Shown here: positions 20,858-38,502 of the stretch, in pieces | Layout: every line of letters starts with the position of its first letter | Numbering within the stretch: the first letter of the stretch is position 1 | Source: PS1 clade bacterium | GTDB lineage: Bacteria; Pseudomonadota; Alphaproteobacteria; RS24 | Assembly (NCBI GenBank): GCA_016779015.1 | Contig: JADHOK010000002.1 | Location: forward strand, 1 to 40,358 | Reading direction: 5' to 3' | DNA length: 40,358 bases | Translations under genes and position numbers: made by a program | Notes under the pieces: generated by a model | Told to the model about the DNA's origin: nothing | The model's database searches: none | The model's input: the letters and a program-made list of their open reading frames with translations, nothing else

Positions 20858-21574
20858 ATGGCTGATAACTGGTCGGGTAATCAAACCACACAGACCACCG
20901 AGGCAGGCACGCAAGCGGTCGATGAGGGTCTGCGCATTTATATGACCAAAGTCTATAACTATATGGGGCTGGGTCTGCTGGCCACCGCGGTGACCGCTTA
21001 TATCGGGGCCGCTTCGGGGATTTATGTTGCGCTGGCGCAAACCCCGCTCATCTGGCTGGTTGTTTTCGCGCCGTTGGGCATGGTGCTCTATCTGTCGGCG
21101 CGTCTGCACCGCATGAGCGAGCGCGCGGCGAAAACCACTTTCTGGATTTATGCCGCCATGACCGGCCTGTCACTGTCTTATGTGCTGCTGGCCTTTACCG
21201 GCGTTTCGGTGGTGCGTACTTTCCTTATCACCGCCGCTTCTTTCGGTGCGCTGTCGCTTTACGGCTATACCACCAAGCGCGACTTGAGCGGCATGGGTTC
21301 GTTCCTGTTTATGGGCCTTATCGGGATTATTCTGGCGTCCATCGTCAATCTGTTCCTGCAAAGCTCGGCCATGCATTTCACGATTTCGGTAATCGGTGTG
21401 CTGATTTTTGCCGGTCTGACAGCTTATGACACGCAAGACATTAAGCGGATTTATTTCGCCGGTGACAGCCGCGAGATTGCCGAGAAAAAAGCCATTATGG
21501 GGGCGTTGCGCCTGTATCTGGACTTTATCAATATGTTCTTGTTCCTGCTGCAATTCCTCGGCAATCGCGAATAG
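20858..21574 (+). CDS. Bax inhibitor-1/YccA family membrane protein
   Basis: Seven-TM-like; TAYDTQDIKRIYF, GALRLYLDFINMFLFLLQFLGNRE C-terminus. Confidence 0.95.
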   Translation: MADNWSGNQTTQTTEAGTQAVDEGLRIYMTKVYNYMGLGLLATAVTAYIGAASGIYVALAQTPLIWLVVFAPLGMVLYLSARLHRMSERAAKTTFWIYAAMTGLSLSYVLLAFTGVSVVRTFLITAASFGALSLYGYTTKRDLSGMGSFLFMGLIGIILASIVNLFLQSSAMHFTISVIGVLIFAGLTAYDTQDIKRIYFAGDSREIAEKKAIMGALRLYLDFINMFLFLLQFLGNRE

Positions 21575-21596
21575 TCGCGCAGAGTTGTAATATTTT

Positions 21597-21631
21597 AAAA
21601 CCCGGCCCCGTCAAACGGGTCGGGTTTTTTT
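21597..21631 (+). terminator. Rho-independent terminator after the BI-1 gene
   Basis: aaaacccggccccgtcaaacgggtcgggttttttt: GC-rich stem, short loop, T7 tract. Confidence 0.9.
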
Positions 21632-21657
21632 CATGTTCAGTGTCGGGCGATGGCCTT

Positions 21658-22062
21658 CTAATCGACCAAGCGGAGAGATTTGCGGTCAAAAAACCGCATC
21701 AGCGCGGGCAGGTCGTGGCCGCGGCGCAAAACCCGCCCATCCATGGCGCGCAGCACATATTGGCCTTGCTTGCGGTGCAGGGCGGGAATTTTATCGATGC
21801 GGAATAAAGGCACTTCGCTGGCGCGGCGGAAGATCGAAAAACACGCCGCTTCGCGGCCATCGCTAATGGCATAATCGCGCCACAGACCGGCCGCCACCAT
21901 GCGGCCATAGACATTCAACAAATCGCCCAGCTCGTGGCGCGTCCACATCACCCGCTTGGGCGGGGCTTGTTTGGCGCGGCGTTCGCGCTCAAAGGCGTTG
22001 CCAACGACGACCAATTGTTTGCGGGGCATGAATGGCTTGCGCGTTTTGCTCATGGATTTCAT
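21658..22062 (-). CDS. DUF2794 domain-containing protein
   Basis: FTRHELGDLLNVYGRMVAAGLWRDYAI-like region (read as MWTRHELGDLL...) ... VPLFRIDKIPALHRKQGQYVLRAMDGRVLRRGHDL; start uncertain (22098, 22062 or 22053). Confidence 0.8.
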   Translation of the reverse strand: MKSMSKTRKPFMPRKQLVVVGNAFERERRAKQAPPKRVMWTRHELGDLLNVYGRMVAAGLWRDYAISDGREAACFSIFRRASEVPLFRIDKIPALHRKQGQYVLRAMDGRVLRRGHDLPALMRFFDRKSLRLVD

Positions 22063-22099
22063 GGTGGCGCGATGCGGGCGCGATTGCAAGGGGGCCATA

Positions 22100-22154
22100 A
22101 AAATTGCGCCAAAATTGCGCCAAAATTGCTCAGAAATTGCCCTGAAATTGCCCT
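22100..22154. repeat. 11-bp phased A-tract repeat array (5 copies)
   Basis: AAAATTGCGCC-type units; the AAATTG core recurs exactly every 11 bp (TT at 22104, 22115, 22126, 22137, 22148). Confidence 0.85.
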
Positions 22155-22211
22155 ATTTCAGACTTTTTATTGTCCCAATTATGGTGAAACTGAAACCTGC
22201 TTGAAGAGCCC

Positions 22212-22260
22212 TGCCCGGCGCGCCGCCTCGTTCTCTCCTCCCATGACAGCGCGCCGGGCA
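22212..22260 (+). ncRNA. candidate structured RNA element/sRNA hairpin with CUCCUCCC loop
   Basis: Perfect 12-bp stem TGCCCGGCGCGC (22212-22223) / GCGCGCCGGGCA (22249-22260); loop contains CTCCTCCC (22235-22242); followed by A/T-rich atttatttta. Confidence 0.45.
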
Positions 22261-22351
22261 ATTTATTTTAAGCCCCATTAAGGGGGGGCACGCCTTGCGC
22301 GCGAAAAGCGCATTGCCAGCAGCTTTTTCTTCACCTAAAGGTTGGGGTCAC

Positions 22352-22382
22352 AACCCGATAGCGCAGGGCCGGTCGGGTTTTT
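22352..22382 (+). terminator. terminator-like hairpin upstream of the gldA-like gene
   Basis: AACCCGA ... TCGGGTT stem followed by a T-run (22378-22382), located before ATG 22405. Confidence 0.55.
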
Positions 22383-22404
22383 GAGGGATTGACGAGTCAC
22401 ATCG

Positions 22405-23388
22405 ATGATTGAAGTCGAACATTTGGTCAAAAAGTTTGGGGATTTCACCGCCGTCGCCGACCTCTCCTTCACGGTGGAGCGCGGCCAAGTGATGGGTTTT
22501 TTGGGGCCCAATGGCGCCGGCAAATCGACCACTATGAAAATGATTACCGGCTTTTTGCGCCCGACATCGGGCACGGCGCGCATTATGGGCCTCGATATTT
22601 GTGACGATATGCTGGCCGCGCAGCGCCATTTCGGCTATCTGCCCGAAGGCGCACCGGCTTGGCCCGATATGACGCCGCGCGCTTTTTTGCAATTTATCAC
22701 CCGCATTCGCGGTCTCGACAAAGCCGCCGCGCGCGCTGCTGAAGGCCGCGCTATTGAGATGACCGAGCTGCACGGCGTGCTCGACCAGCCGATCGATACA
22801 TTGTCGAAAGGCTATCGCCGCCGCGTCGGGCTGGCGCAGGCGATTGTTCACGACCCCGATGTGCTGGTGATGGACGAGCCGACCGACGGCCTCGACCCGA
22901 ACCAGAAATTCCAAGTGCGCCGCGCCATTACCGATATGGCCGCCGACAAAGCCATCATCATCTCGACGCATATTCTAGAAGAAGTGGATGCGGTGTGCGC
23001 CGCGGCGATGATTATCGATCGCGGGCAAATTGTTGCCGAGGGTACGCCTAGCGAACTGGCGGCGCGCTCGCGCTATAGCGGCGCGGTAACGTTGACATTG
23101 GCGTCGGAAAAATTGCCCGCCGCCCGCGACATCTTAAAGGCTGTGCCGCATCGCGCGGCCGAGCTGGTGACACGCGGTGATGAAAGCACGCTGCATATTT
23201 TTGCGCCCGAGGGCGGCGAACCCGGCGCTCTGCTGGCCGATTTGCGCGCCCGTGTCGGCGAAGCCGGTTTGGCACCCCGCGCCTTGGCATTGGAGACCGG
23301 ACGCCTCGACGATGTGTTCGGCGCGCTGACCGGCAAAGCGCGTCCGGCGGCCGCAAGTTTCGATGCCGGTCAGGAGGGCAGCGCATGA
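22405..23388 (+). CDS. ABC transporter ATP-binding protein (GldA-like)
   Basis: GPNGAGKSTTMKMITGFLRPTSG, LSKGYRRRVGLAQAIVHDPDVLVMDEPTDGLDPNQ. Confidence 0.94.
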   Translation: MIEVEHLVKKFGDFTAVADLSFTVERGQVMGFLGPNGAGKSTTMKMITGFLRPTSGTARIMGLDICDDMLAAQRHFGYLPEGAPAWPDMTPRAFLQFITRIRGLDKAAARAAEGRAIEMTELHGVLDQPIDTLSKGYRRRVGLAQAIVHDPDVLVMDEPTDGLDPNQKFQVRRAITDMAADKAIIISTHILEEVDAVCAAAMIIDRGQIVAEGTPSELAARSRYSGAVTLTLASEKLPAARDILKAVPHRAAELVTRGDESTLHIFAPEGGEPGALLADLRARVGEAGLAPRALALETGRLDDVFGALTGKARPAAASFDAGQEGSA

Positions 23389-38362: not shown

Positions 38363-38502
38363 CCTATCTGCCTATTTTGCCGCCACTTCTTGAAAAGAAG
38401 CGAGATTTAAATTGGTTTCAGCCCCCGGCATGGTGGGGCGAAATCGCCACCCGTCAGCAAGGTTTGCCCACGGGTGCATTTTTGGTTGAAGGCTTTCAGG
38501 CG

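Follow-up and report, generated by a model that had tools for sequence, protein, structure and literature searches.

A putative small RNA with an anti-Shine-Dalgarno terminator loop between DUF2794 and ABC transporter genes in an alphaproteobacterial order

Organisation of the intergenic region

In the window, by which we mean the whole 40,358-nucleotide stretch of DNA analysed here, a DUF2794 gene on the minus strand (21658-22098; PF10984, E 3.3e-33) and an ABC transporter ATP-binding gene on the plus strand (22405-23388; PF00005, E 1.5e-28) diverge from one intergenic region. The ABC gene is presumably GldA-like, as the original prediction labels it. Between the two genes, the plus strand contains a perfect 12-bp stem with the 5′ arm TGCCCGGCGCGC at 22212-22223 and the 3′ arm GCGCGCCGGGCA at 22249-22260. 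The stem encloses a 25-nt loop (22224-22248) bearing an anti-Shine-Dalgarno (aSD) sequence, whose CTCCTCCC seed lies at 22235-22242. In the letters, stem, loop and seed are exactly as first described. The loop is unpaired in the predicted folds of nearly all relatives.

No other perfect inverted repeat of 12 bp with a 3-40-nt loop exists in the window beside the hairpin at 22212-22260, and such repeats (loop up to 40) occur on average 0.31 times per order-1 Markov window. None of 200 such random windows placed CTCCTCCC inside the loop of a repeat of this kind. The motif occurs once in the window and is by itself unremarkable, because about a third of shuffled windows contain one (at least one copy in 37 of 100). 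What is noteworthy is the motif, the stem and their conservation together. Folding of 22160-22390, as the original prediction had suggested, gave z = -2.16, with 5 of 200 shuffles equally stable.

The 3′ arm is followed by the T-rich stretch TTTATTTT (22262-22270, plus strand), which reads TTTTCTT to TTTTTTTT in most relatives, ATTTTCTT and TTTTTTTT being examples. The T-run is short in the window copy and absent or weak in two genomes of the genus, G005 and G010. The stretch likely makes the hairpin an intrinsic terminator. Both flanking genes face away, and the terminator-like hairpin therefore ends neither. The predicted sRNA core, given by the match of covariance model R1, spans 22199-22268 on the plus strand with its 3′ end at the T-rich stretch. 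A small hairpin towards the 5′ end (GCTTGATAAGC/GGCTTTGCGAGCC) is suggestive, its prediction being inconsistent among relatives.

The sRNA had been proposed to occupy 22160-22390 and to end at a second terminator-like hairpin at 22352-22382; we replace this with a short unit of about 22199-22268 whose aSD hairpin is itself the terminator. A single structured RNA over 22160-22390 was rejected, as the downstream half is the promoter region of the ABC gene and varies freely. The three downstream hairpins listed with it (GCCCC-ATTAAG-GGGG, TGCGC-GCGAAAA-GCGCA, and AACCCGA...TCGGGTT with a T-run) are present in the letters, but their structures are not conserved: GCCCC/GGGG has no counterpart in relatives, nor does the 22352-22382 terminator in any of those aligned, and TGCGC/GCGCA, which abuts the ABC promoter-like site, has lost its 5′ arm there. 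That promoter-like site lies downstream of the sRNA at 22313-22341 on the plus strand (TTGCCA at 22313-22318, 17 bp, TAAAGG at 22336-22341), with the same layout in relatives. The 22352-22382 hairpin and its T-run sit between this site and the ABC start, possibly as a species-specific attenuator or by chance.

Upstream (22161-22176, plus strand), the alignment reveals two GTC-like triplets at a spacing of 11 bp within a conserved block. The block reads GTC-N8-GTC at the other loci of the genus, and the window copy (GAC/GTC) is a G/C variant. The block likely serves the sRNA, DUF2794 or both as a promoter or activator site. The spacing of GTC-N8-GTC resembles that of a response-regulator box; a PHO-box reading, which would have only a likeness in spacing in its favour, is not adopted. 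Within 21500-22500 no sigma-70 promoter was recognisable.

Stem rewriting and loop conservation in relatives

The element was first located in sister genomes by DNA search. Each of the 12 genus genomes (13 loci in all) keeps the arrangement DUF2794, hairpin, ABC, as do genera g2, g4 and g6, which belong to the same order. Model R1 matches all 12 genus genomes with E values of 1e-13 to 1e-24; since 12 of the 13 genus loci went into the model, only the match in G010 and those in other genera are independent. In genus g3, DUF2794 has a different neighbour, and the locus contains neither an ABC match nor the hairpin. A dispersed palindrome or REP element was rejected, since the hairpin occupies a single place per genome, or two loci in G006. 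That assembly carries two diverged DUF2794-sRNA-ABC loci (C7:278025-278095 and C17:17896-17966), reflecting either duplication or mixed strains.

Both parts of the covariation check suggested at the outset, compensatory stem changes and a conserved loop motif, were found in these relatives. Across 19 loci, 6 of the 11 aligned stem pairs have two-sided changes (15 cells), and 98.1% of cells in the stem alignment are paired. The covariation score was 0.354 against 0.198 ± 0.019 for shuffled alignments, a value reached by 0 of 500 shuffles, where the alignment represents one small order, its sequences were hand-trimmed to the hairpin beforehand, and the shuffles ignore relatedness. Controls with slid partners gave 0-1 pairs with two-sided changes. 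The changes recur across several lineages, and an alignment restricted to the genus gives a weaker signal, with one such pair. Stems in the genus read GCCCGGCGCGC/GCGCGUCGGGC or GUCCGGCGCGC/GCGCGUCGGAC, in g6 UCUCGGCGCAC/GUGCGCCGAGA, in g4 ACCCGGCGUG/CACGUCGGGU and in g2 CUAAAGUCCGG/CCGGACUUUAG; in G022 the stem is imperfect.

While the stem is rewritten, the loop is frozen. Its core, CTCCTCCCATG, is unchanged in the 13 genus loci, TCCTCC lies in the loop at 21 of 21 loci from four genera, and in the g2 genome G012 an entirely different stem still presents UCUCUCCUCCCG. The base before the motif in the genus is T, not C. The window and the other loci shown each have a single intergenic CTCCTCC, except G016, which has a second copy. 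Together these comparisons make a structured plus-strand RNA element well supported as a prediction.

Searches of 289 alphaproteobacterial genomes with covariance models R1 and R2 gave no credible homologue outside the order. The best class-wide matches there were rejected as ordinary short-loop terminators with GCCCGGCGC stems, and the match L317 overlaps a coding gene. DUF2794 intergenic regions were compared at 29 loci from outside the order, at least 8 of them with an adjoining ABC gene, and at none was a comparable hairpin seen whose loop carries TCCTCC; at one locus outside the order, L105, a weaker fold 426 bp upstream contains CTCCTCC. On these searches the element is therefore order-specific, as far as sampled. 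Two intergenic GC-rich terminator-like hairpins from other alphaproteobacterial families, L303 1501-1565 (G149) and L315 1501-1542 (G267, near rplU), have pyrimidine-rich loops with CUCUCCUC and are possibly unrelated aSD-loop RNAs.

Strand and alternative explanations

We consider it likely that the plus strand encodes, at about 22199-22268, a short sRNA that acts in trans and whose terminator loop pairs with Shine-Dalgarno sites and lowers translation. The main alternative, which we judge unlikely, is that the hairpin lies in the 5′ UTR of the ABC operon as a leader or attenuator and controls readthrough. The hairpin is on the same strand, upstream of and always adjoining the ABC gene, and many genus members have a tiny ORF-like run (ATGGTGATGATGGAA...TGA) before it. 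That run, however, lacks a Shine-Dalgarno site and is missing in G001, G004, G005, G010 and the other genera. Moreover, the conserved promoter-like site separates the hairpin from the ABC gene, and in g4 and g6 it takes the form TTGC(C/A)A-N17-TA(T/A)NTS only 6-12 bp before the ABC ATG (L071, L080, L086, L087, L088, L089). The ABC mRNA, which from this spacing is probably near leaderless in g4 and g6, therefore cannot contain the hairpin there. The distance from loop to ATG ranges from 77 to 273, and the loop has no close match to any part of the ABC start region.

A GC-rich stem followed by a T-run could also describe a plain intrinsic terminator with a functionless loop, which would stop antisense or spurious transcripts arising between the two genes. 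As a rule, loops of terminators are short and subject to drift, whereas this loop of 14-27 nt keeps TCCTCC in four genera despite the rewritten stem, making this explanation very unlikely. We give still less credence to a functional RNA on the minus strand, in which a DUF2794 leader would display GGGAGGAG in its loop. The element does lie upstream of DUF2794, and either strand folds with similar energy. G-U pairs nevertheless occur in 14 cells on the plus strand, where the minus strand would have A-C mismatches, and the T-run is present solely on the plus side of the hairpin; both features favour the plus strand. In addition, no start codon follows GGGAGGAG at 4-12 nt on the minus strand, and g3 retains DUF2794 yet has lost the hairpin together with the ABC neighbour. 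Finally, the palindrome might be an operator bound by a regulator of the two divergent genes. This would suit a divergent promoter region but is scarcely credible, as the half-sites vary (GCCCG, GTCCG, TCTCG, ACCCG, CTAAAG) while complementarity is kept, the stem includes G-U pairs, which in DNA would be mismatches, and the fixed part is the spacer.

Candidate targets and relation to known sRNAs

For the trans-acting sRNA, we can hypothesise a mechanism. RNA polymerase would start between DUF2794 and the hairpin and stop at the hairpin T-run, leaving UCUCCUCCCAUG exposed in the large terminator loop. This sequence is complementary to (U)GGGAGGAGA, i.e. to Shine-Dalgarno sites, and would pair with mRNAs whose site reads (U)GGGAGGA(G), blocking 30S binding and thereby lowering translation of the target mRNAs. 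Hfq may help the sRNA; the hfq gene product was found in 11 of 12 genus genomes, including G000. NfeR1 silences ntrB, and its aSD loops pair with the translation start region (PMC10746234). By analogy, NfeR1-like silencing would be the most economical model for this element.

In the 12 genus genomes, GGGAGGA-N3-10-ATG occurs 169 times against 31 reversed-pattern controls, and sites for the 8-mer GGGAGGAG are not enriched (20 versus 17). The 115 proteins downstream of GGGAGGA include 27 orthologous clusters present in at least two genomes, 10 of them in four or five. Among the recurring clusters are two AMP-binding (acyl-CoA synthetase-like) proteins, GreA, a beta-lactamase-family hydrolase, MnhB, a MotA/ExbB-type protein, MAPEG, a PQQ-domain protein and an MFS transporter. 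From these we infer acyl-CoA synthetases, GreA, MnhB and MFS as candidate targets; the recurrence of GGGAGGA near ATG in the 27 clusters may be plain Shine-Dalgarno conservation. Duplexes between the loop and 102 sites have a mean of -16.9 kcal/mol, compared with -11.7 for the presumed sequence of the 16S tail, an advantage that arises partly by construction because the sites were chosen for GGGAGGA. The excess of GGGAGGA-ATG over control was 5.5-fold in g1, 4.9-fold in g6 and 10-fold in g2. It was 2.6-fold in g4, which has the hairpin (44 versus 17), and 2.0-fold in g3, in which the hairpin is absent beside DUF2794 (45 versus 22). The joint occurrence of the sRNA and of GGGAGGA sites in the different genera is suggestive only.

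A covarying, conserved stem with an exposed aSD loop is a general trait of aSD sRNAs, and the element has it. The alpha-r14/NfeR1 RNAs (Smr14C2) of Sinorhizobium and relatives and RFM SmelA075/SmelA099 likewise present a CUCCUCCC-type aSD in hairpin loops, and they are also intergenic and alphaproteobacterial, with variable stems and a constant loop motif. This pairing of variable stems with a constant aSD loop is described for alpha-r14/NfeR1, SmelA075/A099 and CcsR RNAs (PMC3927594, PMC10746234, PMC10253847). Whereas the alpha-r14/NfeR1 RNAs, which come from Rhizobiales, carry CCUCCUCCC in the loop of each of their three or four aSD hairpins, the element belongs to another order and has a single hairpin with U before CUCCUCCC and a larger loop, the aSD hairpin being itself the terminator. 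The CcsR1-4 or 'cuckoo' RNAs (CIN1 locus, Rhodobacter) also carry aSD hairpins, for which blocking of ribosome-binding sites has been proposed. They are tandem and co-transcribed with the DUF1127 gene ccaF1 (PMC10253847), whereas here a single unit lies between DUF2794 and ABC, and no DUF1127 gene (PF06568) was detected in the 12 genus genomes at E 0.001. AbcR1/AbcR2 (alpha-r15, SuhB-related, RF00519) similarly have CU-rich aSD motifs in unpaired regions and many transport and metabolism targets (PMC7143759), but they are 114-120 nt long with three stem loops and lie in tandem by lsrB, and the element has no RF00519 match. Short sRNAs such as Yfr1, RprA and Qrr1 share a GC-rich terminator hairpin with a U tail at the end (PMC3927594); here the recognition motif is in the terminator loop, and we claim no sequence similarity to them.

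An Rfam search returned no sRNA family for the element at an E of 5, noting that Rfam 15 may not include an alpha-r14 model; matches to mir-431 and HOTAIRM1 (miRNA/lncRNA) were rejected as chance. The original prediction had offered an independent sRNA of the cuckoo/CcsR class or a new one. An independent element of sRNA type with an aSD loop is supported, and membership of cuckoo/CcsR/alpha-r14 is not: we do not file it in alpha-r14/CcsR because it has one aSD hairpin, no DUF1127, other neighbours, a different preceding base and no Rfam match. The element is a putative, previously uncatalogued sRNA family of a known kind, set apart from alpha-r14 and CcsR. A stronger reading, which we hold to be rather doubtful, makes it a minimal one-hairpin aSD sRNA of the order that arose independently of cuckoo/alpha-r14, with the terminator as recognition loop and a dedicated GGGAGGA regulon (lipid, transport, growth) whose ribosome sites would be offset from the 16S optimum AAGGAGG.

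With the element, an uncultured order of Alphaproteobacteria that has streamlined genomes gains a putative sRNA family backed by covariation. With the same loop on unrelated stems and beside unrelated neighbours, it offers a clean case for asking if aSD-loop sRNAs arise repeatedly in the class. A single hairpin would serve as both terminator and pairing surface; the terminator role should make cloning and testing easy, and the list of candidate targets is short. Elsewhere in the window, the only Rfam match is the 'ffh' sRNA (RF01793) at 38433-38484 on the plus strand, with 54.5 bits.
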